Numbered from the stretch's first letter, positions 9,283 through 49,823 are shown. The stretch: 54,558 nt of DNA from a candidate division WOR-3 bacterium (GCA_039804025.1 JBDRZP010000017.1:1-54558); one strand, 5' to 3'. Made by a program: numbers and translations. Notes: a model not told the origin generated them from the sequence alone.

Positions 9283-12055
9283 CGAAAAACTAAAAGAAAC
9301 ACTTAATCTTCCAAATACAAAATTTCCAATGAAGGCCTCTCTTAAAGAGAGAGAGCCTCTCATGCTTAAATTCTGGGAGGAAAAGAGGATATATTTCCGG
9401 GTTCTTGATGAAGATAGACCCTTATTCATCCTTCATGATGGACCACCTTATTCCAACGGTCACATACATATAGGAACAGCAATGAATAAAATTCTTAAAG
9501 ATTTTATAGTTAAAAGCAAAATGATAATGGGATACAAAACTCCCTATATTCCTGGATGGGATAATCACGGAATGCCGATTGAAAATGAAGTAATAAAGGA
9601 AGATAGTGAAATAAGAGAAATCCTCTCAAAAGATCCATTTGCACTTAAAAAGGAGGAAGTTAGAAAAACCTTAAGAAAAAAATGTGAGAATTTTGCAAGG
9701 AAATGGATGAATATACAGAAAGAGGAATTTAAAAGGCTTTTATGTATTGGAGACTGGGAGAATCCTTATTTTACAATGCATCCTGAATATGAGGCTGAAG
9801 AACTTAAAATACTGGCTCAACTTGCAAAGTTAGGGTATATAGAAAAAGGATTTATGCCACTCCACTTTTGTGCTCATTGTAAAACTGTCCTTGCAATGGC
9901 TGAAATTGAATATAAAAATAAAACATCTCCATCAATTTACTTTTTAATGGAACCATTAAACATTAAAGAGTTTCCAGAAAAAACTTATATTCTTGTATGG
10001 ACAACAACTCCCTGGACAATAATTTCAAATGTTGCCCTTGCCTTTAACCCTTATTTCCATTATGGTGTAATTGAAACAGAAAAAGGGAGGTTCCTTTTTG
10101 CCCTTGAAACCCTTGATAGGTTAAAAGAAGAACTTCAATTCGAAAAATTTAATGTTTTAAAAGAATTTAAAGGAGAAGAACTTGAATTTAAAAAGTTTTT
10201 ACATCCCTTTTATAATAGAGAATCTATTGGAATCCTTGCAGAATTTGTTGAGAAAGAAACAGGTTCAGGAATAGTCCATATTGCTCCTGGACACGGAAAA
10301 GAAGATTTTGAAGTAGGAAGCAAATATAACTTACCTATATTATCCCCAATTGATGATGCAGGAAAATTTACAAAAGAAGCAGAAGGATTTGAAGGAATGG
10401 ATACAGATTCTGCATCACAAAAAGTAATAGAAATTCTTGAAAAAAATAATAAATTATTAAAGAAAGGAGAAATTATTCATTCCTATCCTCACTGCTGGAG
10501 ATGTAAAAATCCTTTAATTTTCAGAGCAACAGAACAATGGTTCTTAAGGGTTGACCACAAAAATTTAAGAAAAAGAGCACTGGAAGAAATTAATAAAGTT
10601 AACTGGATACCACCAGCCAGCAAGCAGAGCATTTATAATGCTGTTCTTGAAAGACCTGATTGGTGCATATCAAGACAGAGAGCATGGGGTCTTCCAATAC
10701 CTGCTTTTAAATGCAAAAAATGCTCTAAGAGTTTCATTGATCCTGATTATGTTTTAAAACTTGCAAATCTTGTAGAGAAAAAGGGATCACAGATTTTCTG
10801 GGAAGAAAATGAAATAGAGCTTCCACCCTGTCCTTTCTGTAAATCAAAGGAACTTGAGAAGGAAAAGGATGTCCTCGATGTCTGGATTGATTCAGGAGTC
10901 ACAAATTTAATTGTTCTTAAACAGAGAAATCTCTCTTGGCCAAGTGATGTTTTTATTGAGGGACCTGATCAGCACCGTGGATGGTTCAATGCTTCTTTAA
11001 TGATAAGTGTAGCCATAAAGGAAAAGGCACCTTATAAAACAGTTATAACCCATGGATGGACCCTTGATGAAAAAGGAAGGGCAATGCATAAATCCCTTGG
11101 AAATGTTATATCCCCCCTTGAGGTTATAGAAAAGTTCGGTTCAGAAATTCTAAGAGTATGGACAGCTTTTTCTGAATATACACAGGATGTGAGAATATCT
11201 GACAATATTTTGAACCTCATGGTTGAAAATTACAGAAAAGTAAGAAACACATTCAGATTCCTCCTCGGTAATTTATACGATTTTAATCCAAAGCAGAATT
11301 CAGTGAATTTTGAAGAAATGTTACCTGTTGATAAATATATGATGATTAAAACTGATGAATTTAAAGAAAAAATTATTGATTTTTATGAGGAGTATGCTTT
11401 TCACAGAGCCTTTCATCTTTATCATAGATTCTGTGCTCTTGATCTATCTTCCTTTTATCTTGATATATTAAAAGATAGACTTTATACCTTTTACTATGAT
11501 TCAAAAGAAAGGAGAAGTGCACAAACTGTCCTTTACTATATACTTAAAACACTCCTTGTTCTTGGAGCTCCTATTTTATCTTTTACCTGTGAAGAGGCAT
11601 ATCAGGAAATGCCTTATAAAGAAAAAGATAGTATATTCCTCGAAACCATAACAAAGGAAAGGAAATATAAGGATGATAACCTTGTAAAGGATTTTGAAAA
11701 AATTCTCGAATTAAGAGATATTGTCTTTAAATTACTTGAGGAAATGAGAATTAACAGAAAGATTGGCTCCTCCTTAGAAGCAGATGTTTACATTCAGGGA
11801 GAAGATGAGGTTATAGAAAAATATTTTGAATATTTACCAGAAATTTTTATAGTTTCACAGGTTAAAAGGGGTAAACCACAAAGTTTTGAACTTTCATCAG
11901 AAAAAGAAAATATTAAAATCTATGTTAAAAGAAGTGAGGGAGAAAAGTGTGATAGATGCTGGCGATACCTTGAAGAAGTTAAAAGAAATGAGAAAAAATT
12001 ATGTAAAAGGTGTGAAGAAGTTCTTTTAAAAAAGGAGTATTTATATGAAGGATAA
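9275..12055 (+). CDS. ileS: Isoleucyl-tRNA synthetase
   Basis: 926 residues, normal for the family. Charges tRNA-Ile with isoleucine. The class I HIGH motif is HIHIG in PPYSNGHIHIGTAMNK near residue 58, and the KMSKS-equivalent loop is AMHKSLGN near 608, with His in place of Ser. The editing domain is present (TTTPWTIISNVALAF near 250). The C-terminal zinc finger CDRCWRY...CKRCEE near 890-915 is complete, as in the bacterial form. The gene overlaps both neighbours and lies in the operon ending with sprA. Confidence 0.97.
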   Translation: MNSEKLKETLNLPNTKFPMKASLKEREPLMLKFWEEKRIYFRVLDEDRPLFILHDGPPYSNGHIHIGTAMNKILKDFIVKSKMIMGYKTPYIPGWDNHGMPIENEVIKEDSEIREILSKDPFALKKEEVRKTLRKKCENFARKWMNIQKEEFKRLLCIGDWENPYFTMHPEYEAEELKILAQLAKLGYIEKGFMPLHFCAHCKTVLAMAEIEYKNKTSPSIYFLMEPLNIKEFPEKTYILVWTTTPWTIISNVALAFNPYFHYGVIETEKGRFLFALETLDRLKEELQFEKFNVLKEFKGEELEFKKFLHPFYNRESIGILAEFVEKETGSGIVHIAPGHGKEDFEVGSKYNLPILSPIDDAGKFTKEAEGFEGMDTDSASQKVIEILEKNNKLLKKGEIIHSYPHCWRCKNPLIFRATEQWFLRVDHKNLRKRALEEINKVNWIPPASKQSIYNAVLERPDWCISRQRAWGLPIPAFKCKKCSKSFIDPDYVLKLANLVEKKGSQIFWEENEIELPPCPFCKSKELEKEKDVLDVWIDSGVTNLIVLKQRNLSWPSDVFIEGPDQHRGWFNASLMISVAIKEKAPYKTVITHGWTLDEKGRAMHKSLGNVISPLEVIEKFGSEILRVWTAFSEYTQDVRISDNILNLMVENYRKVRNTFRFLLGNLYDFNPKQNSVNFEEMLPVDKYMMIKTDEFKEKIIDFYEEYAFHRAFHLYHRFCALDLSSFYLDILKDRLYTFYYDSKERRSAQTVLYYILKTLLVLGAPILSFTCEEAYQEMPYKEKDSIFLETITKERKYKDDNLVKDFEKILELRDIVFKLLEEMRINRKIGSSLEADVYIQGEDEVIEKYFEYLPEIFIVSQVKRGKPQSFELSSEKENIKIYVKRSEGEKCDRCWRYLEEVKRNEKKLCKRCEEVLLKKEYLYEG

Positions 12056-12874: not shown

Positions 12875-15800
12875 TAATTTTGCTATTTATTTTAACTCAA
12901 TCTACATACCTTGATTCTCTTTTGCTTAAAAACCTTAATAGAAATTTTGAAACAGATAGTTTAAAAAATTTTGATAATTTTGAATTAATATTTTCCTATA
13001 GAAAAGAGCATCTCGTTAGAATAGAAAAAAAGGAAATAGAGAAAGACCTTGATAAAAAAATTGAAGAGATAACAAGGCAAGAATTAAATAAAAAAATAGA
13101 AGAAAAAGTAGCTTTAAGGGGAACAGGACTCATACCAGATATAACAATTCCAATTCCTGTTGAGCTTCCCTTCGGATTAACAGATGAAACCAAGGTAAAA
13201 ATAGGTGGATTTCAGAATTTATCAATGGGATTGCAGAGGGATGAATTTTCATCACAGTCAAGAAGAACACCTCAGGGTGCATCAAGTCCTGGTATAAAAC
13301 TTGAACAACAGCTAAAAGTTAATGCAGAAGGAATAATAGGGGGTAAAATACACCTTTTACTTGACCATGATTCTCAAAGGGAAACTCAAGATTTACAAAC
13401 AATCAAAATAAGATATGAAGGAGATGAAGATGAAGTAATAAAATACCTTGAAGGTGGAAATCAAATAGGAGAGAGAGGTGCTACCGGTGGTCTTTTCGGG
13501 CTTGCAGGAAAATTCCAGTTTGGTTCTTTTGATTTCGAAGCAACAGCATCAAGGGAAATGGGTAACAAAAAAGAAATCGTTCTTACAAAGGGTGGAGTTG
13601 TTGAAGATACTGTAAAAATTGAAGATAAGGATTATGAAAAAAATAAATTCTTTTTAATACCTATTTCACCTGGAGACCAAATAATAATAGATTCAATTTT
13701 CGTTTTTTATAATGATAATATTGAATCAAATGATACTTTAATAAGAAACCCCTTTAAAGGTAAAACCTTTCTTTATGAAAACCCTGATTCTTTCAGTAAT
13801 AAAATTTACACCTTTCAAATTCTAAAAAGAGACTCAGCATATTCAAACATATTTTTCAGTAACATAATTGAAATTAAAATCCCAACATCTACTGACTTTA
13901 TACTTGCTGTTGCATACAAAACTAAAAACTCAGGATGGATAGGAAAGTTAAATAAATCCAATCCCCTTGATACTTCAAACAAATTTCTTCTTCTAAGGGA
14001 ATATGGATTAAATAACTATAAAGACCCTACATGGAAATTCATGTTAAAAAATATTTATTATGTTGGTCAGATTGACTCTGCCTCATTAAAGATTGTAAGA
14101 TATGATTCTCCATACAATATTGAACAAGAAAATGGTAAGACTTTTCTACACATTTTAGGTCTTGATAAAAATTCAGATGGAGTTTTAGATAGATATATAA
14201 ATTATGGAGGGATAACCAATTTTATTCCTTATGTTAATGGTTATTTATTTATTCCAAAACCTGAACCCTTTGCCTATGATTCTCTGAGTGTAAAGGATAC
14301 AATAATTTACAGAACCTTTTCAGAAACAGAGATTTCCCAGAGAGATCATATTTATAAAATCATCACTGTTACAAGAAGGAGACCAACAACAATAAATCTT
14401 GGAATGACAGGAATTGTAAAAAATTCTGAGGAGGTTTATTTTGGAAGTGAAAGATGGGAATCTGGGAAAGATTATATAATTGATTATGATTCAGGTATTA
14501 TGCAGATTTTGAATAAGGATTACTTAAATGACCTTTCCCGTGAATTGAAGATTAAATTCAATGAAAGAGCTCTGTTTCAAACTAAAAAAAGAACCTTTAT
14601 GAATTTAAAGGGTAATTATAATATATCGGAGAATTCTAATCTTACTTTTGGTGTTGATTACAGGGGCGAGTCAACTGCAGAACAGAAAATAAGATTTGGT
14701 GAGGAACCTAAAAGGGTTTTTCTTTTTAATTCAAATTTAAATCTTGAAAGAGAGTTGCCTTTTAATTTCTTTTCTTTTTTACCCTGGTTAAAGGAATTAA
14801 GGGAACCCAAATTAAAAGTTTTATCAAGATTTAACCAGTCTTTCCCTGATCCCAATACAAGAAATTATGCATATCTTGATGATATGGAATCAGCTACTCT
14901 TGAAATTTTTGCTGATTTAAACCATTTTAACTGGATTTACGGTTCATTACCTTCATATTTAAAGGATTCAACAAATGGTTACATAAGAACTTTTGAAGAC
15001 TATTTTGAAAATAATTTAATATGGTTTGAAACAAATAAATTTTTATACAAGGATATTTACCCATATATTCCAGGACAGCAGGGTAACAGAACCTTAAGTG
15101 TGCTTGAAGTAATTTTAAAACCAGGGAGTAAAGGAGAGGCTGGATTTGCTTCCTTAAACCAACTTATCTCAAAAGACGGTGTTGATATATCATCTTACGA
15201 TTATCTTGAAGTGATTGTAAAGGGTAAAAGTGGTATAATGGGAATAGATATAGGTTCTGAAATAAAAGAAGATGCCTGTTTCAGAGATATTAGGGGTAAT
15301 TTAGTTGGAGTAGGAATAGAAAATTCAGAGGACGGAGCAAACGGGGGTTGGAAAGATTCAAAATTACAGGCAGATAGGGAAGATGTTGGGCTTGATATGG
15401 TGCCCGATGGAGCATCAGGTGATGCTGGCAATGATAATTATGAATATGGAAACATTAATAAAATAAATGGAACAGAAGGAAATGGAAAACTTGATACAGA
15501 AGATATTGATGGAGATGGTTTTAATCCTGATAGAGATGATTGCTTTACCTATATAATAGATTTAACAAGGGATTATTATCAGATATACAATGGTTTTAAG
15601 TTTTACAAAATACCCCTCGATAAATTCGCAAAGAAATATGGGAACCCTGAAATCATAAGAATAAAAAAAATAAGAATATTTTTCACAGGATTTTCAAAGA
15701 CTGATACAATCTATATAGCAAAAATTGGTATAACCGGGAATAAGTATATTTCCCAAGGAGTTTTTAATAATGGAAAACCTGTAAGTGACCCTGATAAAAA

Positions 15801-38019: not shown

Positions 38020-40161
38020 TTACCTTGTGATTATAACTTTAAAAGGTTTATTCTCTTTATATTTTAAAAAGTAAATGCCAGGGCAAATTCCATCAACGGA
38101 TAATGAAATTTTTGAATTTAACTTATTCACCATATAAGTTCTAACTTTCTCACCAAGAACATTATAGAGTTCAAATTGACTTATTTTATCTTTAATCAAA
38201 GGACTTAATTCAATCTTTATTTCATTTTTAACAATATTACTTAATAACCTAAATCCTTCTTTTGAAAAATCTTTCTCCTTTATTCCTACTCCATAAAATT
38301 CATAAATCTGTAAACCAGCACCCAAATCAGTAACATAGGCATAATTGCCTGAAACATATACACCATAAGCATATTCAGGTAGAAGATAATATCCTACTTC
38401 AGATGGTAAAGAGGGATTTGAAACATCTATTATCCTTAAACCAGCCCCGAAATCAGCAACATATGCGTAATTTCCTGAAACATATACACTATAAGAAGAG
38501 CCAGGTGTATCATAATACCCTGCTTCATATGGTGATGAAGGAATTGAAACATCTATTATCCTTAAACCAGCATTATAATCAGCAACATATGCGTAATTTC
38601 CTGAAACATATACACCGTAAGACTTGCCAGGTGTATCATAATACCCTACTTCTGATGGTGATGAAGGAACTGAAATATCTATTATCCTTAAACCAGAATC
38701 ACCATCAGCCACATATGCATAATTGCCTGAAACATATACACCATAAGCCCAGCCAGGTGTATCATAATATCCTACTTCAGATGGTAAAGAGGGATTTGAA
38801 ACATCTATTATTCTTAGACCAGCCCCACCATCAGCAACATATGCATAATTGCCTGAAACATATACACCCTCTGCATAGCCAGGTGTATCATAATACCCTA
38901 CTTGAGATGGTGAAGAAGGAATTGAAACATCTATTATCCTTAGACCAGCAGTAAAATCAGCAACATATGCGTAATTCCCTGAAACATAAACACCCTCTGC
39001 ATAGCCGGGTGTATCATAATATCCTGCTTCATATGGTAATGAAGGATTTGAAACATCTATTATCCTTAAACCAGCCATCCAATTAGCAACATATGCATAA
39101 TTTCCTGAAACATATACACCATGAGAATAGCTAGGTGTATTATAATATCCTGCTTGTGATGGTGATGAAGGAATTGAAACATCTATTATCCTTAAACCAG
39201 CCCAGCCATCAGCAACATACGCATAATTCCCTGAAACATATACACCGTAAGATTCACCAGGTGTATCATAATATCCTACTTCAGATGGTGATGAAGGATC
39301 CGAAACATCTATTATCCTTAAACCAGCATAAAGATCAGCAACATATGCATAATTCCCTGAAACATATACACCATAAGAATAGCCGGGTGTATCATAATAT
39401 CCTACTTCATATGGTGATGAAGGATCCGAAACATCTATTATCCTTAAACCAGCATAAAGATCAGCAACATATGCGTAATTCCCTGAAACATATACACCCT
39501 TGGCATAGCCAGGTGTATCATAATATCCTACTTGAGATGGTGACGAAGGATCCGAAACATCTATTATCCTTAAACCAGCAGTATGATCAGCAACATATGC
39601 ATAATTTCCTGAAACATATACACCGTAAGAGTTACCAGGTGTATCATAATATCCTACTTCATATGGAGATAAAGGATTTGAAATATCTATTATCCTTAAA
39701 CCAGCCCACCTATCAGCAACATATGCATAATTCCCTGAAACATATACACCGTAAGAATAGCCAGGTGTAAAATAATGACCCAGTTTGTTTGGATTTGATG
39801 CATCTGTTACATCCCATATCTCAAGCCCTCCTTTTTCTGCTGCAATATATAATCTTTGATTTGCTGGTTCATAAAAAAGTCCATAAACAACTCCCCTTGT
39901 GTGAAATTCTGAGACCTTTACCGGATTTGAAGGATCTGAAACATTAAGAATATAAACACCCCCACCAGAGCCTAAAAACACTAAATTTCTTGAAGGATCA
40001 AAAATAGTTGCAGAAGAAGCACCAAATGGCCAGTTTCCTATGAAGCGGACATTCATTGAATCAAAACCTGCCTTTACCTCAATTTCAGAAGGAGGAAACA
40101 TTTCCAAGGGCTTGTAATTAACCCCCGCATTCATCAGATTTATAAGTATAAATACCCACAT
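38020..40161 (-). CDS. Repeat-rich LVIVD-like beta-propeller surface protein with T9SS sorting domain
   Basis: 713 residues. A short signal peptide is followed by two diverged repeats (about residues 45-135) and 12 near-identical repeats of 42 residues, consensus GVYVSGNYAYVAD-xx-AGLRIIDVS, of the LVIVD propeller type. The last about 85 residues (FRLLSNIVKNEIKIELSP to FKVIITR) with LYNVLGEKV and GIYFLKY form a type A C-terminal sorting domain, so the protein should cross the outer membrane by T9SS. It has its own promoter. A structural or adhesive role is likely; ligand unknown. Confidence 0.88.
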   Translation of the reverse strand: MWVFILINLMNAGVNYKPLEMFPPSEIEVKAGFDSMNVRFIGNWPFGASSATIFDPSRNLVFLGSGGGVYILNVSDPSNPVKVSEFHTRGVVYGLFYEPANQRLYIAAEKGGLEIWDVTDASNPNKLGHYFTPGYSYGVYVSGNYAYVADRWAGLRIIDISNPLSPYEVGYYDTPGNSYGVYVSGNYAYVADHTAGLRIIDVSDPSSPSQVGYYDTPGYAKGVYVSGNYAYVADLYAGLRIIDVSDPSSPYEVGYYDTPGYSYGVYVSGNYAYVADLYAGLRIIDVSDPSSPSEVGYYDTPGESYGVYVSGNYAYVADGWAGLRIIDVSIPSSPSQAGYYNTPSYSHGVYVSGNYAYVANWMAGLRIIDVSNPSLPYEAGYYDTPGYAEGVYVSGNYAYVADFTAGLRIIDVSIPSSPSQVGYYDTPGYAEGVYVSGNYAYVADGGAGLRIIDVSNPSLPSEVGYYDTPGWAYGVYVSGNYAYVADGDSGLRIIDISVPSSPSEVGYYDTPGKSYGVYVSGNYAYVADYNAGLRIIDVSIPSSPYEAGYYDTPGSSYSVYVSGNYAYVADFGAGLRIIDVSNPSLPSEVGYYLLPEYAYGVYVSGNYAYVTDLGAGLQIYEFYGVGIKEKDFSKEGFRLLSNIVKNEIKIELSPLIKDKISQFELYNVLGEKVRTYMVNKLNSKISLSVDGICPGIYFLKYKENKPFKVIITR
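38290..39780 (-). repeat. Twelve 126-base tandem repeats inside the propeller gene
   Basis: Each unit encodes 42 residues and is highly conserved in DNA as well as protein. Variation concentrates in the two codons after VAD (RW, HT, LY, LY, GW, WM, FT, GG, GD, YN, FG, LG) and in a second pair after TPG. Neighbouring units 3 and 4 share LY, suggesting a recent unit duplication. Copy number could vary between strains. Confidence 0.9.
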
Positions 40162-40428: not shown

Positions 40429-40797
40429 TTATTTCAAATGTCTTATAATCTCCAATACTTCTTTATGCCTTTCCTCTGCATTCTTTTCCATAACCCTTAA
40501 AGTCTCATCCATCTTATAAAGCATCTCACTTATCTTTTCTAACATCTCTGATTGCCTATTTAGAATTTCTGTATGTCTATTCAGTGTTTCTGATTGCTTA
40601 TTTAACATCTCTGTCATCTTATTTAGCATTTCAGTTTGCTTATTTAATATTTCAGTATGTTTATTCAAAATTTCATTCTGTTTATTTAGCATTTCATTCT
40701 GTTTGCTTATCATCTCTTTCATCCATCTGCCATTACTCCATGCAAAATAAGTTAAAACTCCTGCAAGCAATGTAAGACCTATTCCAAATATTTCCAT
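40429..40797 (-). CDS. Single-TM protein with perfect heptad coiled coil, 122 aa
   Basis: An N-terminal membrane segment (IFGIGLTLLAGVLTYFAW, residues 3-20) is followed by about nine heptads of the pattern NKQTEML (variants NKHTEIL, NKQSETL, NRQSEML), ending in a charged helix. The seven-residue repeat is so regular that the gene is a 21-base tandem repeat. It closely mirrors the plan of 5327-5662 and 37135-37380. No enzymatic motif. It is preceded by IS copy 3, whose end supplies the -35 of the predicted promoter; the -10 is only 8 bases from ATG. Confidence 0.7.
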   Translation of the reverse strand: MEIFGIGLTLLAGVLTYFAWSNGRWMKEMISKQNEMLNKQNEILNKHTEILNKQTEMLNKMTEMLNKQSETLNRHTEILNRQSEMLEKISEMLYKMDETLRVMEKNAEERHKEVLEIIRHLK

Positions 40798-41425: not shown

Positions 41426-41878
41426 ATGCAAAAATTAATTGGTGTAATAGGTGGTTCAACCTGCACAAAAGAAATTTACGAGATTGCCTATGAAGTTGGT
41501 AAAAACATTGCTAAAAGTGGTAACATCTTAATCTGTGGAGGATTAAGTGGTGTTATGGAAGCAGCCTGTAAAGGTGCCTATGAGGCTGGTGGACTCACAA
41601 TAGGTATATTACCAGGTGATTCAAAAGAAGAAAGCAATAAATGGGTTAAAATACCTATAACTACTGGAATGGGAATGGCAAGAAATATAATAATAGTTAA
41701 ATCCTCTGACGGAATTATTGCTATTGATGGTGAATATGGAACACTCATGGAACTTGCAATTTGCAGTAAATTGAATAAACCCTTGGTAAAAATTAAAGTT
41801 CCTTTTAAAATTGAAGCAGGTATTGAAGAAAATAATCCTGAAAAGGCTGTTGAACTTTTATTAAAACTTTTAAAATGA
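41426..41878 (+). CDS. LOG-like / TIGR00725-type nucleotide-binding protein
   Basis: 150 residues with a Rossmann-like start (IGVIGGSTCTKEIYEIAYEVG), the segment GNILICGGLSGVMEAACKGAYEAGG and GEYGTLMELA near residue 111. These are shared by LOG phosphoribohydrolases and TIGR00725/Moco-carrier-like proteins. The full PGGxGTxxE signature of LOG enzymes is replaced by DGEYGTLMEL, so the second group is more likely. The TATAAT at 41413-41418 is 7 bases before ATG, suggesting a leaderless start. First gene of a four-gene operon. Confidence 0.75.
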   Translation: MQKLIGVIGGSTCTKEIYEIAYEVGKNIAKSGNILICGGLSGVMEAACKGAYEAGGLTIGILPGDSKEESNKWVKIPITTGMGMARNIIIVKSSDGIIAIDGEYGTLMELAICSKLNKPLVKIKVPFKIEAGIEENNPEKAVELLLKLLK

Positions 41879-43230
41879 ATAAGAAGTCCTCAATCCTTAT
41901 AATTGCCTGTATGTCCTCTTTTATAACACCTTTTATGGGCTCTTCAATAAATGTTGCATTACCAATCATGGGAAAAGAACTTTCTCTTTCAGCATCTGTT
42001 TTAGCATGGATTGCAACATCCTATTTACTTTCAGTTTCAATATTTCTTCTACCTTCAGGTAAAATAGCAGATATATACGGAAGAAAAAAAATATTTCTGT
42101 CAGGTCTCATAATCTACTCATTTTCTTCTTTTCTTTTATCCCTTTTTTCAAATCCCTTCTCTATAATCTTTTTAAGGGTAATTCAGGGAATTGGTGCAGC
42201 AATGATATTTGGAATGGGAATTGTTATATTGACAGAAGTTTTTCCAAAAGAAGAAAGAGGAAAAGCACTTGGAATAAATTCTGCTTCTGTATACACAGGA
42301 CTTTCTTTAGGTCCCTTTTTAGGAGGAATTTTAACTAAGGAATTCGGATGGAGAAGCATATTTATTTTTAATTCAATTTTTTCTTTTATAACAGCAATTT
42401 ATCTAATTTTGAGTTTTAAGATGGAATTTAAAAATTTAAAAAAAGAAAAATTTGATATTAAAGGTGCTACAATATATGGAGTTGCCCTATTCTTTCTTAT
42501 TTATGGTCTTTCACTATTGCCTTCAAAAAATGGTATAATATTTTTTTTAATTGGTGTCTCTGGAACTATTTTGTTTTTAAATTTTGAGATTAAAAACGAA
42601 TACCCTATATTAAATGTAAATCTTCTTAGAAAAAATTTAGTTTTTTCCTTTTCAAATCTTGCAACTTTTATAAACTATGCATCAACCGCAGGTGTTACAT
42701 TTATTTTAAGCCTTTATCTTCAATATATAAAAGGTATGAATCCAAGGGAAACAGGAATAATCCTTCTAAGTCAGCCAATTGTGATGGCAACAATTTCCCC
42801 CCTTGCAGGAAGATTGTCTGATAAAATAGAACCCAGCAAAGTCGCCTCCTTTGGTATGTTTTTAACATTTCTCTCTCTTTTAATATTTACATTTTTAGAA
42901 GAAAATACAAAAATCCTATTCATAATTTTTAATCTAATTCTTCTCGGTTTGGGACTGGGAACGTTTTCCTCTCCCAATACAAATGCTATTATGAGCTCAG
43001 TTGATAAAAAATTTTATGGTGTTTCTGCTGGAATGCTTGCCACAATGAGAGTTTTGGGCCAATTGTTCAGTATGGCACTTGTTACCCTCTTATTGACATT
43101 CTATATAGGAGGTAAAAAAATTGTTCCTGAAAATTTTCATCTGTTTTTAATAAGTTCAAAAATAACCTTTCTAACTTTTAGTATTTTATCTTTTATTGGA
43201 ATATTTATATCAATAAAAAGAAATAGATGA
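41875..43230 (+). CDS. MFS drug/proton antiporter, DHA2-like
   Basis: 451 residues with about 14 membrane helices. The N-terminal half has NVALPIMGKELSLSASVLAWIATSYLLS near residue 27, typical of the DHA2 (EmrB/QacA) branch; the loop motif GKIADIYGRKKIF (near residue 61) is the MFS signature A; GIGAAMIFGMGIVILTEVFP follows. Exports small molecules using the proton gradient; substrate unknown. It overlaps the genes on both sides by 4 bases. Confidence 0.88.
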   Translation: MNKKSSILIIACMSSFITPFMGSSINVALPIMGKELSLSASVLAWIATSYLLSVSIFLLPSGKIADIYGRKKIFLSGLIIYSFSSFLLSLFSNPFSIIFLRVIQGIGAAMIFGMGIVILTEVFPKEERGKALGINSASVYTGLSLGPFLGGILTKEFGWRSIFIFNSIFSFITAIYLILSFKMEFKNLKKEKFDIKGATIYGVALFFLIYGLSLLPSKNGIIFFLIGVSGTILFLNFEIKNEYPILNVNLLRKNLVFSFSNLATFINYASTAGVTFILSLYLQYIKGMNPRETGIILLSQPIVMATISPLAGRLSDKIEPSKVASFGMFLTFLSLLIFTFLEENTKILFIIFNLILLGLGLGTFSSPNTNAIMSSVDKKFYGVSAGMLATMRVLGQLFSMALVTLLLTFYIGGKKIVPENFHLFLISSKITFLTFSILSFIGIFISIKRNR

Positions 43231-44690
43231 TTAAAAAAGAAATTCTTTCAAATATAGAAAAAATAAACAATAAAAAGGAATTTGAAAAGTTTTTTTATAA
43301 TCTTTTAAATTCCTATAAAAAACATAAATCTCTTATAAAAATATTAGAAAAAAAATTTGATATTATTTTTGAACGAATTGACCCTAAATTTCTTAAAGAA
43401 ATATATTACTCAATTCCTTTATCCGAGGAAATTAAGCTTCTTTTTGCCAAAATTTTTTTTAAATATGGAGATTTAAATGAAACAAAAAATATATTAAAAA
43501 ATTTAGAAAGTTCTTTTAATTCATTATCAAATTATAGCAAATATACCTTTATTTCCATATATTCTGCTATTCTTATTGAAGAAGGAAATATTAGAAAAGC
43601 TTTAGTCTATATAAATAAAGGACTTTTACATCTTTCTAAAAAATTTAAAATAAACTTGAAAATTTTAAAAAACGAAATAATCCGTTCATATTTCTCTCCT
43701 GAACTTCATTATTCAGAACTATTAAGCATCACAAAAAAACTAAAAGATAAAAGAAAATATCTATCTCTTTTAATCCAAGAAGCCCTTTTAAATTTTTATA
43801 AAGGAAAATTTGAAAAATCTTACGATTTAATTGAAGAAGGCATTGAGATTGCAAGAAATAAAAAACTTTACGATATTACTGTTATCTTTTCCTGTATAAT
43901 GGCAAGAATTGAAAGATTAAAAGGTAATTTTGAAAAATCCCTTTCAATATTAAATTCCATCGAAGAATATTTAGAAAAAAGTGCCTTTCTTGGAAAATAC
44001 TATTTTTTAATTGAAAAAACTTCTCTCTGTATAGATTGGAATAAATTTGAGGAAGCAAGGAATATAATATCAAAAATAAATGAAAAAAATTTACCCCCTC
44101 TTTTAAAAAGCTACTATTACTTATTACTTATGAGACTTGCAAGAAAGGAAACAAAATTTTATCTTTTCAATACATATTCTGATAAATTTTTTTCTTTTAA
44201 ATTTTTAGAAATTGTGAAAAAATGGGAAGGTTTAATAGAAAAATTTCTTTTAAGTATAGAAAAATTTTCAGAAAGAGAAATTTTAAAATATATAGAAACT
44301 GTAAGAAAGAAAAAACTTATCTATTTTGAATTCCTTTTTGAAACTTGTCTTTTTATCTATTATCTTAAAAGAAAAGAAATAGAAAAAGCAAAGAGAATTT
44401 TAACTAACTTTAAAAGATACCCCGAGGCTTTTTTTGGTTATTTTAGAAGAGATGCTTTATTCTTTTATAGAACTATAAAGGAAAATAAAATAGATGAATT
44501 TATTTATTCAAATCATTATCTAAAAAAAATACTCATTAATATACTTTCTGACAAGGATGTTCTTTTAAAGGCAATCAAAGATAATGAAATTCCTATTGAA
44601 TTTTTACCTGAAATAATAGTTGATAAGAAAATTTATTCAAAATCAATTTTCAAAGAAATCAGTAAGAAGGGTAAGGAAGCAAAAAAATAA
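43227..44690 (+). CDS. TPR-like helical repeat protein upstream of the BTAD-like regulator
   Basis: 487 residues, almost entirely helical and rich in Lys and Ile. Repeat-like segments include KYGDLNETKNILKNLE near residue 79, EEGNIRKALVYINKGLLHL near 117, YKGKFEKSYDLIEEGIEIA near 192 and GNFEKSLSILNSIEEYL near 233. No ATPase or DNA-binding motif. Its 4-base overlap with the transporter and 11-base gap to the BTAD-like gene link them. Large SARP/BTAD regulators often carry a C-terminal TPR region on the same chain; here it may be a separate partner. This is inference. Confidence 0.6.
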   Translation: MIKKEILSNIEKINNKKEFEKFFYNLLNSYKKHKSLIKILEKKFDIIFERIDPKFLKEIYYSIPLSEEIKLLFAKIFFKYGDLNETKNILKNLESSFNSLSNYSKYTFISIYSAILIEEGNIRKALVYINKGLLHLSKKFKINLKILKNEIIRSYFSPELHYSELLSITKKLKDKRKYLSLLIQEALLNFYKGKFEKSYDLIEEGIEIARNKKLYDITVIFSCIMARIERLKGNFEKSLSILNSIEEYLEKSAFLGKYYFLIEKTSLCIDWNKFEEARNIISKINEKNLPPLLKSYYYLLLMRLARKETKFYLFNTYSDKFFSFKFLEIVKKWEGLIEKFLLSIEKFSEREILKYIETVRKKKLIYFEFLFETCLFIYYLKRKEIEKAKRILTNFKRYPEAFFGYFRRDALFFYRTIKENKIDEFIYSNHYLKKILINILSDKDVLLKAIKDNEIPIEFLPEIIVDKKIYSKSIFKEISKKGKEAKK

Positions 44691-44701
44691 TAAAAGATAT
44701 T

Positions 44702-45397
44702 TTGTATTATTTTCAAATTGAACCCCCTCCACTTACTATAAAACTCTTTGGAAATTTTGAAATAATTTTAGGTGAGGAAAAAATAATTCTTCAAAGAAAA
44801 AAATTAAGACAGTTTTTTAAAATCCTGGTTTTTATGAAAAACAGATGGGTAAGTAAAAGGAGAATTATTGAAATTCTTTATGGAAAATACTCTGAAAAAT
44901 ATGTCAAATCTATCTCAATTCTTTTTTCCTTTCTTAATAATGAACTTAATATTTTTCTTGAGAGAAATATAGAAGGTTACAGATTCTTAGAAAGAAAAAA
45001 TGTTTTTATAGATTATTTTGATCTAAAAGAAAAAAGGAATATGGGTGAAAGCTTTTTTGAAAAAGGTGATTATGGAAATGCTCTTAATTATTTTGAAAAA
45101 TTTATAAGTGAAACTGAAAATGAATTTTTAGAAGAAGATAAAGGAAATGAATTTTTTGATAATATTATTTCAGAACTTAAAAAAGAAAGAATAAAAGTTT
45201 TAGAAAAATTGGCTATAATTTATGAGAGTTTAAAAATTAGAGAAAAAGAAATAGAATGTTTAGAAAAAATTATAAAACTTGACCCCTATCTTGAATTTCC
45301 CTATAAAAAATTAATCCTAATATATGAGGAAATTAACGAAAAATTAAAGGCTAATTTAATTAAAGAAAAATATGAATCAATTGTAAAAAATTTGTAA
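44702..45397 (+). CDS. SARP/BTAD-like transcriptional regulator
   Basis: 231 residues, TTG start. Residues 5-95 form an OmpR-like winged helix: LTIKLFGNFEIILGEEKIIL, then RQFFKILVFMKNRWVSKRRIIEILYG and a recognition helix around KYVKSISILFSFLNNEL, with wing residues NIEGYRFL. The rest (SFFEKGDYGNALNYFEKFI to YKKLILIYEEINE) is a BTAD-type helical repeat domain. Regulators of this fold bind direct heptamer repeats spaced 11 bp next to the promoter. Exactly such a site (45381-45398) overlaps its own stop codon and precedes the next gene. The start codon is not certain; there is no good ribosome site. Confidence 0.75.
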   Translation: MYYFQIEPPPLTIKLFGNFEIILGEEKIILQRKKLRQFFKILVFMKNRWVSKRRIIEILYGKYSEKYVKSISILFSFLNNELNIFLERNIEGYRFLERKNVFIDYFDLKEKRNMGESFFEKGDYGNALNYFEKFISETENEFLEEDKGNEFFDNIISELKKERIKVLEKLAIIYESLKIREKEIECLEKIIKLDPYLEFPYKKLILIYEEINEKLKANLIKEKYESIVKNL

Positions 45398-45414
45398 ATT
45401 TCAAAGCTTATAAT
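45381..45414 (+). promoter_or_regulatory. BTAD-type operator and promoter of the VGIGT surface protein
   Basis: Direct repeats TTGTAAA at 45381-45387 and 45392-45398 are 11 bp apart, then 10 bases, then TATAAT at 45409-45414. The same arrangement, with a 21-base identical block, lies upstream of the secreted-protein operon at 49823-49790. The first repeat falls within the last codons of the regulator gene. No normal -35 is present, as expected for a site needing an activator. Confidence 0.65.
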
Positions 45415-45437
45415 CTACTATAAAAAGGAGGTTTAAG

Positions 45438-46064
45438 ATGAAAAACATTATACTGAGTATAATGGCTGGTGGTATTACAAATTTAATCCTTTCAGGATTA
45501 ATCATATCATCTTCTGGTTCCAGAAAAGAAGAAAACAAAATTTTTTGGATACAGCCTAAAATGGGCTGGGAAGTAAATTATGGAACAAACCAGATTTACG
45601 CTCTTGATAATTCTGGCGGAGTAAATCCTAATGTGGGTATCGGAACAGATAATCCATTGTCAAGATTCCACTTACTTGGTGATTTTTATAATCAGGGATT
45701 TGTGGGATCAAAAAGTTATTATGAACCCTCTGGAATAAGCTGGACTAATGTTGCAACGCTTAATTATACATCACATGGAACAGGAGAAGATGGTTCTGTT
45801 GTTTTAATATATGCTCACTTACAGACTAATGCTTCTGGAGGTGCTGTTGATGGATTTATAAGAGTTTTAAGAGATGGAACACCTATAGCAAGTGCTTGCG
45901 GAGGAGGATATTATGATATTTTGTATGGTCAATATGGTTACTTTGGTGTAACTCTTGTAAGTTATGATGAACCTGGTGCAGGTTCTCATACATATACATT
46001 ACAAAGGGAAAGTGTTTTACCACAAAATGGTTATACTTTTTTCGTTATAGAACTTAAAAGGTAA
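45438..46064 (+). CDS. Surface-type protein with a VGIGT motif, 208 aa
   Basis: The N-terminus (IILSIMAGGITNLILSGLIISSSGS) is a membrane anchor or signal. NPNVGIGTDNPLSRFHL near residues 69-85 is the motif common in tail-fibre-like and surface proteins. The C-terminal part is beta-rich and Gly/Tyr-rich (GGGYYDILYGQYGYFGVTL, QNGYTFFVIELKR). Strong AAGGAGG site and an activator-type promoter next to the BTAD-like regulator. Its tail overlaps the tail of the convergent subtilisin gene by 11 bases. It has no type A sorting domain. Exact role unknown. Confidence 0.6.
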   Translation: MKNIILSIMAGGITNLILSGLIISSSGSRKEENKIFWIQPKMGWEVNYGTNQIYALDNSGGVNPNVGIGTDNPLSRFHLLGDFYNQGFVGSKSYYEPSGISWTNVATLNYTSHGTGEDGSVVLIYAHLQTNASGGAVDGFIRVLRDGTPIASACGGGYYDILYGQYGYFGVTLVSYDEPGAGSHTYTLQRESVLPQNGYTFFVIELKR

Positions 46065-47808
46065 TAATTTTTTTAAATTTTTTTCTTTCTTTTATAAAAT
46101 AAATTTTTCTTTTTCTTAAATTTTCATTTATTTTTCTTCCGGTTATATCATAAAAAATTATTATTTTATTTTCTTCTTTTTTAACATTTTCCTCAATATT
46201 CGATACATTAACAAAAAAACCGTATGTAATTGTTGGTGCATTTTCAGGGTCAAAAGATATATTATCTGAAAGGTCTTTTGCTTTCAAATAGTATCTTATA
46301 AAGGTAGGACCATTAACATTAGGAATCAAAAATAAGAATTTAGATAAAAAAGAATCACATGGAAAAAGTGAATCCCATGGTTCACTGTTAAATTTATAAA
46401 ATAATTTTTTATTTTTCAAGCCAAACAGATCTTTAATCTCGGACCATATAAGAAAAGGACCAGAAAAATTTGTATCTGTCCATATTGTTGTGTTTAAAAT
46501 AGAAGGTCCTACTGTATCACCTCCTCCAAGGGCATAAAAAGCATCTATTCTACCAAATCCATATAAAGTATCATAACCTCTCGTTCCTAAATCTTTTGAA
46601 TAAATTCTCAGTATTTTCCTTATATTTTTAGTGGGTATCTTATGAGAAAGCATTAACGCAATAACACCTGACACATGTGGAGTGGCCATTGAAGTTCCAG
46701 CCATTCCTACATAAAAAAAGGTATCAGGTTTTGGTTTTGGAAAACCTATTTCCCTCATTCCAATTGTCTGTTGAACAACAAGGTCAGGAAAACCATTTCC
46801 ATCTCTATCTATTAAATCTCCACCTGGCGCAACAACATCTATTGTATCACCATAATTGGAATAAAAAGTTAAGGAATCAGCTGAATTTGTTGCTCCGACC
46901 CCTATTACTTCTTTATATGCTGCAGGGAAATAGGGTTCGCGATAGGCGCTATTTCCTGCACCAGCAACCATTATTACCCCTTTTGAATATGCATATTGAA
47001 TTGCCTCATAGAATATAGGACCTGGATCAACTGCGGATGCAATGCTCATATTTATAATATTACAACCGTGCTCTACTGCATAGTAAAGTCCATCTGTTAC
47101 CCAATCAGTTGAACCCCATCCATAAGAATTTATAACCTTTATTGGCATAAGGGTTATGTTGAATGCTATTCCTGCAACACCTTTTCCATTATTCGTGCTT
47201 TCAATTATTGTTGCTGAAACAAATGTTCCGTGACCGTGATCATCATTAGGATGAAAATCATTATGGACAAAATCAAAACCGTTTATAAAATTAGCCCTAT
47301 CAAAATCAGGTGCTTTTTTATACCAATCAGAATTTACTTCATCTCTCTCGTAAATTGGGACAGGAAAATCTTCAAAAGCACAACCTGTATCAAGAACACC
47401 CACTTTAACTTCGCTTTTTCCTCCCTGTTCAATATCCCAGGCTTGAAAAAGTCTTATTTTAGAAAAATGCCATTGATAAGAAAGATAGGGATCATTCGGT
47501 ATCCATTTTATATCATGAAGAGTTATATACCACTTAACATTTGGCTGAACATACATAACTTCACTTTCAGTTTTTAACTTATCGATCATCTTTTCTATAT
47601 TTTCTTCTGTGAAAACTGTATAAAAATTCCCATATTGGCTTTTTCTTAATATCTTTAAACCATTTTTAGAAAAAAATTCATCTTCCTTCACACCTTTTTT
47701 TAATTTAATCAGAATCTGATTTTCCACATATGAAGAGGAATTTTTCTTAACATCTTCTATTTTTATAATTCCTAAAAGTGTAAATAAAAAAAGTGTTACC
47801 TTACACAT
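46054..47808 (-). CDS. Secreted subtilisin-like S8 protease with T9SS-type C-terminus
   Basis: 584 residues. Signal peptide and inhibitor I9-like propeptide (residues 25-95, ILIKLKKGVKEDEFF, then VMYVQPNVKWY). Catalytic residues: Asp in VGVLDTG near 137, His in DDHGHGTFVS near 190, Ser in AGTSMATPHVSG near 373. A module of about 100 residues (NTTIWTDTNFSGPFLIW) follows and resembles the three modules in the neighbouring protein. The extreme C-terminus (IIFYDITGRKINENL, KRKIYFIKERKKFKKIITF) looks like a reduced type A sorting domain. Its start overlaps the upstream gene by 13 bases. Confidence 0.9.
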   Translation of the reverse strand: MCKVTLFLFTLLGIIKIEDVKKNSSSYVENQILIKLKKGVKEDEFFSKNGLKILRKSQYGNFYTVFTEENIEKMIDKLKTESEVMYVQPNVKWYITLHDIKWIPNDPYLSYQWHFSKIRLFQAWDIEQGGKSEVKVGVLDTGCAFEDFPVPIYERDEVNSDWYKKAPDFDRANFINGFDFVHNDFHPNDDHGHGTFVSATIIESTNNGKGVAGIAFNITLMPIKVINSYGWGSTDWVTDGLYYAVEHGCNIINMSIASAVDPGPIFYEAIQYAYSKGVIMVAGAGNSAYREPYFPAAYKEVIGVGATNSADSLTFYSNYGDTIDVVAPGGDLIDRDGNGFPDLVVQQTIGMREIGFPKPKPDTFFYVGMAGTSMATPHVSGVIALMLSHKIPTKNIRKILRIYSKDLGTRGYDTLYGFGRIDAFYALGGGDTVGPSILNTTIWTDTNFSGPFLIWSEIKDLFGLKNKKLFYKFNSEPWDSLFPCDSFLSKFLFLIPNVNGPTFIRYYLKAKDLSDNISFDPENAPTITYGFFVNVSNIEENVKKEENKIIIFYDITGRKINENLRKRKIYFIKERKKFKKIITF

Positions 47809-49769
47809 AGCATTTTTCTTATTTTTTTATTTTTTTCTGAATTCAGCACAATAAAGTATATTCCCCTTTTTAATTCTTTAAAGGAAAATTCATAAACACC
47901 TCTATTTACTTTACCCTCTAAAATTTTCTTCATTAACCCCCCATTAGCCTTATAGATTTTTAAAGATATAAAATCCTCTTCAGGAACAAATAAGTATAAC
48001 TTTTTATTTTTTATATCTTCATTAAATACAAGTTCACCTCTATTAACTAAATTTTCATCCACATTAACATAGTTTGCAATAAATTGATAATACTGGGTCG
48101 GATTAGAGGGATCTCTTCCAACATTCTGGTTATTATCCTTTGCTTTTAAATAATATCTTATTATAGATGTTTGAGTAATAGGTGGGATATGAAAATGAAA
48201 AGTATCACCTTTAACAGAATCATAGGGAAGTGAATCCCATGGATTAGTAAAAATTTTAAAGTATATTCTTGCCCATTGTATACCAGCAGGATCTTTTATA
48301 ACTGATTTTACAGGGAAAGGTCCATTAAAAGTAGTATCACGCCATACTGTTGTACCTGTAAAAGAAGGGGGCATATTATCAATAACATTAAATATATAAA
48401 CTGAATTAGGAGCATTCTGTGGATCGTATCCAACATTTCCATTATAAGAATAATCTTGAGCCATTAAATAATATTCTATCACTGTTGGAGGAATAACCTG
48501 AGGTATTTTAAAATAATAAGTGTTCTCTTTTACTGAGTCAGGAAATTTGGCATTATAAGGACCACTTCCCCCGATTCTATAATATAATAAAGCAAAATCT
48601 ATACATCCTCCAGAATCTATAATCGTAGATTTTACTGGATAGGGACCCGCGTAAGATGTATCATGCCATACTGTTGTGTTGTAAAATTTAGGTGGAAAAT
48701 TATCCTGCTGGGGATCAATAAAAAAGAAAGAATAAGTATTTAAAGGAGCTCCCTGTGGATCTGTTCCCCTATTATGATTAGTTGAATTGTCATATGCTAC
48801 AATATAATAATTACAAGTCACTGGTGGATTGACCTGTGGTATCGTAAAATAATAAACATTGTTTTTAACACTATCATGATAAACTCTAACCCATCCTGTA
48901 TTAGAAAATTTATAATAAAGTGAATCAGTATAAATTCCTGAAGGATCTGTAATTTTACTTTTTACTATGAAAGGACCATAACAGGAAGAAGAAAAAAGTT
49001 CTGTTTGGGAAAAAGTGGGTGGACTTACTTCATTTAATGTTGCACTTTTAAGTCTTATATATCTTTCAGCTGTTGTAAAATAAGGATTCATTTCAGGCGA
49101 TTGACTCATAATGGTAGCCGCTGAACCAAGATTCGGGACAACCCATTCATAGATATACCTATACTCATTTATTATTCCGTAATCATCATAGGCATGATAT
49201 CTCTGCCTAATTACAAGACATGGATAAGGACCTCCTAAGGGATCAGGTAAATAAAGAATCCCCTCCCTGACAACTGTATCATTATATTCCTCATGAACAA
49301 CATCCCCATAAAATTCCCAATTGTATTGAGTTATCCAGTTAGAACCAAGTTGCATTGGAAATTTATAAGGTATCCAGTATGGAGAATAATTTATCTGACC
49401 ATAAGATTGATTGTAAAACCCATAAACATACATACCATTTGAATTTTCTGATTCATACATATAAGTTAAAGGCTGACCTGTTATTTGTTGTCTTTCAGCA
49501 AACTGAGAACCAGGAGGTGGATTTCCTGGAACATTTGTCAAATCAAGTAAAGTACTTGTCCAAACTTGAGCAGTTGGTCCTGTCTCAAAATGCCATACAT
49601 TAGTCTGGTTAATTAAAGAATCCATATTAACAGCAATAGGTGAAGAATTAGCATACCATTGCCACTGATTTCCTATCTGATTCAATCCATATGGCCAGTT
49701 TGACTCATTTATTATTGTCTGAGATTTTAGAGATAAGATACATACAATTATAATTATTAATTTTTTCAT
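47796..49769 (-). CDS. Secreted protein with three repeated modules and T9SS sorting domain
   Basis: 657 residues with a signal peptide (KKLIIIIVCILSLKSQ). After about 235 residues of unique beta-rich sequence come three modules of about 100 residues, each beginning near a (T)VW-x-DT or similar phrase and containing GP(F/Y)xVKS and YYxxAxDxxxNxGxDP. The last about 75 residues (ELVFNEDIKNKKLYLFV, KRGIYFIVLNSEKNKKIRKML) are a type A sorting domain. Encoded directly before the protease and cotranscribed with it under the BTAD-type promoter. The modules resemble Ig-like or FN3-like folds, unconfirmed. Confidence 0.8.
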   Translation of the reverse strand: MKKLIIIIVCILSLKSQTIINESNWPYGLNQIGNQWQWYANSSPIAVNMDSLINQTNVWHFETGPTAQVWTSTLLDLTNVPGNPPPGSQFAERQQITGQPLTYMYESENSNGMYVYGFYNQSYGQINYSPYWIPYKFPMQLGSNWITQYNWEFYGDVVHEEYNDTVVREGILYLPDPLGGPYPCLVIRQRYHAYDDYGIINEYRYIYEWVVPNLGSAATIMSQSPEMNPYFTTAERYIRLKSATLNEVSPPTFSQTELFSSSCYGPFIVKSKITDPSGIYTDSLYYKFSNTGWVRVYHDSVKNNVYYFTIPQVNPPVTCNYYIVAYDNSTNHNRGTDPQGAPLNTYSFFFIDPQQDNFPPKFYNTTVWHDTSYAGPYPVKSTIIDSGGCIDFALLYYRIGGSGPYNAKFPDSVKENTYYFKIPQVIPPTVIEYYLMAQDYSYNGNVGYDPQNAPNSVYIFNVIDNMPPSFTGTTVWRDTTFNGPFPVKSVIKDPAGIQWARIYFKIFTNPWDSLPYDSVKGDTFHFHIPPITQTSIIRYYLKAKDNNQNVGRDPSNPTQYYQFIANYVNVDENLVNRGELVFNEDIKNKKLYLFVPEEDFISLKIYKANGGLMKKILEGKVNRGVYEFSFKELKRGIYFIVLNSEKNKKIRKMLCVR

Positions 49770-49789
49770 TTTTTAACCTCCTTTTTTTA

Positions 49790-49823
49790 ATTATAATCTA
49801 TTAAATTTACAAATTTTTTACAA
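49790..49823 (-). promoter_or_regulatory. BTAD-type operator and promoter of the secreted-protein operon
   Basis: On the minus strand TTGTAAA is at 49823-49817 and again at 49812-49806 (11-bp period), followed after 10 bases by TATAAT at 49795-49790. This is the same as the site at 45381-45414, including the linker bases. The start 49769 has an AGGAGG site. Confidence 0.65.

Follow-up and report, generated by a model that had tools for sequence, protein, structure and literature searches.

The window, that is the whole stretch of 54,558 nucleotides analysed here from a candidate division WOR-3 bacterium, contains a predicted regulator gene followed by two convergent gene units, each of which is preceded by the same promoter arrangement. 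The features are listed below in window coordinates.

43227..44690, plus strand: TPR half (N-terminal) of the regulator, read as 487 aa; the frame breaks off at the A7 tract 44681-44687 with TAA immediately after
44687..45397, plus strand: C-terminal winged-helix and BTAD half of the regulator (SARP-like domain), TTG start only, no evident ribosome-binding site
45381..45398, plus strand: site 1, tandem heptamers TTGTAAA (45381-45387) and TTGTAAA (45392-45398), 11-bp period, overlapping the last codons and the stop of the regulator frame
45409..45414, plus strand: -10 element TATAAT of site 1, no -35-like hexamer at 16-18 bp upstream
45426..45431, plus strand: ribosome-binding site AGGAGG of the VGIGT gene
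45438..46064, plus strand: putative target 1, VGIGT protein, 208 aa, hydrophobic N-terminus
46054..47808, minus strand: putative target 2b, 584-aa subtilisin-like protease, Peptidase_S8 with a fervidolysin-type prodomain
47796..49769, minus strand: putative target 2a, secreted protein of 657 aa, with repeats of a domain of ~100 aa and a weak T9SS-type sorting domain at the C-terminus (Por_Secre_tail, below cut-off)
49777..49782, minus strand: ribosome-binding site AGGAGG of the 657-aa protein gene
49790..49795, minus strand: -10 element TATAAT of site 2, no -35-like hexamer at 16-18 bp upstream
49806..49823, minus strand: site 2, tandem heptamers TTGTAAA (49823-49817) and TTGTAAA (49812-49806), 11-bp period, non-coding

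The two promoter sites and the genes behind them

The pattern TTGTAAA-N4-TTGTAAA-N10-TATAAT is found exactly at 45381-45414 (plus strand) and at 49790-49823 (minus strand). The original prediction had described both copies and the 21-bp block identical between them (TTGTAAAAAATTTGTAAATTT) correctly, as well as their placement, one ahead of the VGIGT gene and the other ahead of the operon coding for the secreted protein and the subtilisin. A ribosome-binding site and a start codon follow closely in both cases: the start codon lies 20-23 nt past TATAAT at each site, with AGGAGG in between. The BTAD-like gene was also said to end inside the first site, and its stop codon TAA (45395-45397) indeed falls within the second heptamer. 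The 21-bp block could in part be due to coding constraint there, though site 2 is non-coding. The identity of the two sites is limited to the repeat block and the -10 element, the 7 bases ahead of the latter being unlike (CAAAGCT and AATAGAT), as is the sequence upstream of the block. No -35 element at 16-18 bp spacing is present in any of the four repeat-bearing promoters (two in this genome and two in G002, a relative of the same genus), where the hexamers score 1-2 out of 6 (AAAATT, AAAAAT, AAAAAA). Promoters of such layout probably need the help of a polymerase-contacting protein.

The genes behind the sites had been predicted to converge and to code for secreted or surface proteins, in agreement with what is found here. 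The 3' ends of the two units overlap by 11 nt (the VGIGT gene ends at 46064 and the protease frame at 46054), and the protease gene start overlaps the 657-aa gene by 13 nt. The protease carries the same kind of repeat domain as the 657-aa protein, with 40% identity. The VGIGT protein was found in the three genomes of the genus only (60-genome search), and it has no convincing family in Pfam, NCBIfam or PHROG. Its structure model, built from a single sequence, has a pLDDT of 34, and therefore no fold is claimed. Elsewhere in the window, positions 38020-40161 code for a 713-aa secreted protein with ~13 LVIVD beta-propeller-type repeats and a C-terminal sorting-like domain (the long open frames on the reverse strand of this region are probably spurious owing to the repeats), and positions 40429-40797 for a protein of 122 aa that has a membrane-like N-terminus and repeats of a coiled-coil motif (LNKQ.EI/ML).

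Uniqueness of the sites and their distribution among relatives

The genome to which the window belongs (2.12 Mb in 47 contigs, 95.6% complete) was queried by pattern and profile searches. The 34-bp pattern has two exact matches; allowing 1-2 mismatches adds none, and at 3 mismatches there are 8, as against 9 matches for a reversed control pattern in the same genome. The absence of a third copy, originally noted for the window, thus holds genome-wide, and the pattern is not common elsewhere. A third genomic copy was rejected both by this search and by a check of the matches to the repeat pair alone, which with 1 mismatch fall mostly within open frames and none of which has a correctly placed -10 element and ribosome-binding site. 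The 21-bp block is also the longest identity over all pairs of upstream regions of the window genes, followed by identities of 16 (a ribosome-binding-site run) and 14. When the genomes were scanned openly for any exact heptamer pair of 11-bp period with a nearby -10 element and ribosome-binding site, independently of the TTGTAAA sequence, the window gave only sites 1 and 2, G002 only their two counterparts, and 19 kb of a third genome of the genus (G001) nothing. No such site was found ahead of the regulator's own operon, a point against the proposed regulator. By the distant WOR-3 homologues of the regulator no pair with a -10 element and ribosome-binding site was found, which is a weak test given the short contigs. 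The GC content of 30% and the A/T-rich motif make it necessary to consider similarity by chance. This is extremely improbable: none of 100 dinucleotide shuffles of the window gave two matches, even with 3 mismatches permitted, and a chance origin is refuted by the absence of the exact pattern from 20 Mb of order-3 Markov simulated sequence and by the conservation of the sites in G002.

The comparison of promoters in relatives, which the original prediction had proposed as a check, came out in its favour in G002, where the same cluster genes, the regulator and both exact sites are present, with the distance from block to -10 constant in all four promoters. G001 lacks both regulator and sites. 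It contains the same convergent genes (68% and 72% identity), and the -10 elements and ribosome-binding sites of the target promoters are kept while the repeats are absent from both; no TPR-BTAD protein is present, and the pattern was not found anywhere in this genome with up to 1 mismatch. The neighbours also differ, with a DUF6775 metallopeptidase-like gene upstream of VGIGT and a clpC-like gene beyond the 657-aa gene. The motif and the regulator are present or absent together across the three genomes compared, all of the same genus and two of them mutually close. Since site 1 overlaps the end of the regulator gene, its loss in G001 is not independent evidence, while that of site 2 is.

Two further observations concern these relatives. 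Directly upstream of the -10 element of the 657-aa gene, G001 (L068, C3, ~13580-13640, minus strand) has another kind of repeat array, with GAATATTTGAA three times; it includes a TTGAAT 17 bp from the -10 element, which could have a role as -35. An exact copy of the pattern was also found in G039, a MAG of another family of the class, on a contig (contig 74, L069) that is almost identical to the G002 cluster. It was rejected as an independent instance, as the genes resemble those of G002 and the MAG has a listed contamination of 7%; the contig is probably assembly cross-contamination.

The distribution of the sites bears on two other explanations. The first is that the promoters are alike by copying (gene conversion or a small duplication) and simply constitutive, with no dedicated regulator. 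A block identical in both sites and in both genomes exceeds the need of a loosely specified operator, and the -10 elements are perfect. However, the identity stops within the promoter, before the -10 element and upstream of the block, yet the spacing between block and -10 is exact in four promoters; the genes behind the two promoters are unlike each other, a -35 at normal spacing is missing, and the block is absent from the regulator-free relative, all of which makes copying unlikely.

The second, which we consider somewhat less unlikely but still improbable, is that the repeats are the operator of some other DNA-binding protein, one candidate being the only PhoB/OmpR-type response regulator that the genome encodes. 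Regulators of this type belong to a winged-helix family with the same kind of winged helix, and bind 11-bp direct repeats beside the -10 element (pho-box type sites). The own genome does have one OmpR-type response regulator, and the recognition helix of the TPR-BTAD protein is without the contact residues of AfsR (see below). The response regulator is nevertheless orthologous in all three genomes, with a nearly identical recognition helix (ERTVDVHIRNLRKKLG / ERTVDVHVRNLRKKLG), and so is present in G001, where the motif is not. It does not track the motif and was therefore rejected as the binder. A PhoB-type regulon would moreover be expected at more than two neighbouring genes. Unlike the PhoB/OmpR response regulators, the protein encoded beside the sites has no match to a receiver domain.

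The regulator gene and its predicted fold

At the junction between the TPR and winged-helix frames, the window reads GCA AAA AAA TAA, one base fewer than the junction of G002 (GCG AAA AAA ATA ATA AAA), which is one open frame. The window frames 43227-44690 and 44702-45397 are therefore best read as one gene that is split, and homologues elsewhere in WOR-3 are single proteins of ~720 aa with TPR first and winged helix-BTAD last. The TPR protein, which the original prediction had taken as a separate component of a surface system, is thus the N-terminal part of the regulator. For the transporter named in the same prediction, conservation is not supported: the MFS gene was found in the own genome only among seven searched (none of the six nearest relatives, although the G002 contig ends within the TPR part, too early to exclude the gene there), and it should not be counted within a conserved system. 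The MFS gene and that of a SLOG cluster-4 protein (41426-43230) immediately precede the regulator gene and overlap it. In G002, contig 5 (end of L040) stops within the TPR part of the regulator, and the remainder was not found elsewhere in that assembly.

The Pfam BTAD match of the regulator is weak (15.5 bits against a cut-off of 22.1), and a scan of GTDB with the window BTAD protein alone gave no relatives, while one with a 4-sequence alignment of homologues gave further WOR-3 members. The family alignment consists of 7 rows, namely the window protein and six GTDB homologues (five from WOR-3 and one from a Desulfuromonadales MAG). Its profile matches AfsR (4e-13) and EmbR (5e-10) in the PDB. 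The AlphaFold model of the winged-helix/BTAD half built from the same alignment (mean pLDDT 76, pTM 0.72) gives full-length matches to EmbR (2fez/2ff4) and AfsR (8hvr/8k60) with TM scores of 0.69-0.73. Among these structures is the complex of AfsR and RNA polymerase on the afsS promoter; the remaining top matches are partial ones to TPR. Profile and model thus bear out the original assignment to a BTAD/SARP-type regulator, and the 44.7-45.4-kb protein is predicted to be a winged helix followed by BTAD, folded as in SARPs. As a genome search with Pfam BTAD returns mostly TPR proteins, a two-domain profile was used instead. It detects a single winged-helix/BTAD protein each in the own genome and in G002, but none in G001. 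No ATPase family was matched by either half of the regulator, and the N-terminal part is TPR-like. In AfsR, T88, R92, R94 and K95 contact bases or the backbone close to them; at the aligned positions the window protein has I, F, N and N, and a distant WOR-3 homologue (L079) has V, V, R and D, although the alignment is loose and the model confidence around the recognition helix is moderate. In sequence, the recognition helix is thus unlike that of SARPs. Judging from this alignment, the DNA must be read by other residues, or the protein must read other DNA. We therefore class the regulator as SARP-like and not as a SARP.

The interrupted frame raises the question of the present state of the regulator. 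The gene is broken at a different A7 tract in each of the two related genomes: in the window (44681-44690) A7 followed by TAA separates the TPR part from the winged helix and BTAD, and in G002 (L040 ~10270-10285, minus strand) the frame continues across the junction, and the winged-helix part is broken by an additional A in a different tract. These interruptions could be due to slippage, phase variation or assembly error. It is possible, though we would give it the lesser weight, that the regulator is decaying or phase-variable, with A-tract indels switching the full-length protein off and on and the regulon silent at times. Against this, the C-terminal half is, on the evidence of 22 of 30 base differences falling at third codon positions, under purifying selection, and both copies come from single draft assemblies, in which errors are possible. 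The A-tract of the window is also phased as a -1 slippery site (A_AAA_AAA) with the stop directly after, and a -1 slip would yield the residues of G002, EAKKIIKD, so that an intact protein may still arise. Decay or phase variation is in any case compatible with the sites being a SARP-like operator, as it concerns only the present state of the regulator.

Comparison with SARP systems and proposed mechanism

For AfsR of Streptomyces coelicolor, the operator at -40 to -19 consists of two 11-bp repeats that are occupied by two SARP protomers, and sigma region 4 rests on the protomers rather than on a -35 element (PMC10936776). With the -10 element placed at -12 to -7 by our own count, its operator reads heptamer-N4-heptamer-N10-(-10), the same as sites 1 and 2, in line with the SARP-like geometry of the original prediction. 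SARP sites are described as direct heptamer repeats with a period of 11 or 22 bp next to the -10 element, at a stated distance of 8 bp (PMC10936776), compared with 10 bp here and, by our own count, in afsS. A further SARP trait is that the -35 of target promoters is poor or absent, as it is at both sites here. The resemblance to AfsR and its afs box includes the winged helix and BTAD fold with TPR in the same protein, and the tandem direct repeats of 11 bp that immediately precede the -10 element, with equal spacing and a poor -35. The domain order is however different, as AfsR, a large SARP, has winged helix-BTAD-NOD-TPR, while here TPR comes first and the SARP-like domain last, with no NOD ATPase found. 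The operator here is also AT-rich, the base-contact residues are not conserved, the phylum is WOR-3, and the targets are secreted or surface proteins, whereas AfsR is involved in antibiotic regulation. EmbR of Mycobacterium tuberculosis, which is together with AfsR the best full-length structural match for winged helix and BTAD, ends in an FHA domain instead of having an N-terminal TPR. For PimR, published work points to cooperative binding with one protomer per heptamer and 4-bp spacer, and this and other cluster-situated SARP/SARP-LAL activators share with the present locus a regulator located beside its targets and heptamers 4 bp apart (PMC5930380); they differ in their GC-rich CGGCAAG heptamers, other accessory domains and actinobacterial origin. 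BrpL (SSA_0427) of Streptococcus sanguinis, likened here by annotation, is not actinobacterial; it carries BTAD and TPR annotations and influences surface and biofilm properties (PMC5987052).

Since the AfsR layout equals that of the two sites, we read the locus as a SARP-like activator (TPR, winged helix, BTAD) whose dedicated local regulon consists of two promoters, and consider this reading likely. The sites are a real, conserved and unique pair, and most likely the operator of the adjacent regulator. As this gene adjoins two promoters with matching sites unique in the genome, its product probably turns on just the neighbouring secreted-protein genes. We infer that the tandem TTGTAAA heptamers, whose 11-bp period corresponds to one helical turn, would be occupied by two adjacent protomers just ahead of the -10 element, where these would replace the -35 contact for sigma region 4, as in AfsR. 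This would activate the VGIGT surface protein gene as well as the operon that encodes the secreted 657-aa protein along with the subtilisin-like protease, with the TPR part taking up a signal. Such a system would be of a kind already known and new as a variant, through its reversed domain order, the absence of a detected ATPase, its AT-rich operator and its occurrence in WOR-3. A more elaborate proposal, which we regard as doubtful, is that a SARP-type sigma-adaptation activator outside Actinobacteria, whose recognition helix and AT-rich operator differ from those of AfsR and PimR, has its amount or activity set by A-tract slippage (programmed -1 frameshifting at A_AAA_AAA or phase variation) and so acts as an on/off switch for a two-promoter cell-surface regulon.

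In the literature searched, nothing was found on transcription regulators of WOR-3, and little on SARPs outside the actinobacteria. The locus provides a concrete, small and testable candidate pair of regulator and operator in WOR-3, and assigns a likely regulator to surface proteins that are otherwise without a known role. It suggests that promoter activation of the SARP type, in which two protomers on 11-bp repeats replace the -35 contact, extends beyond the Actinobacteria with another DNA specificity.
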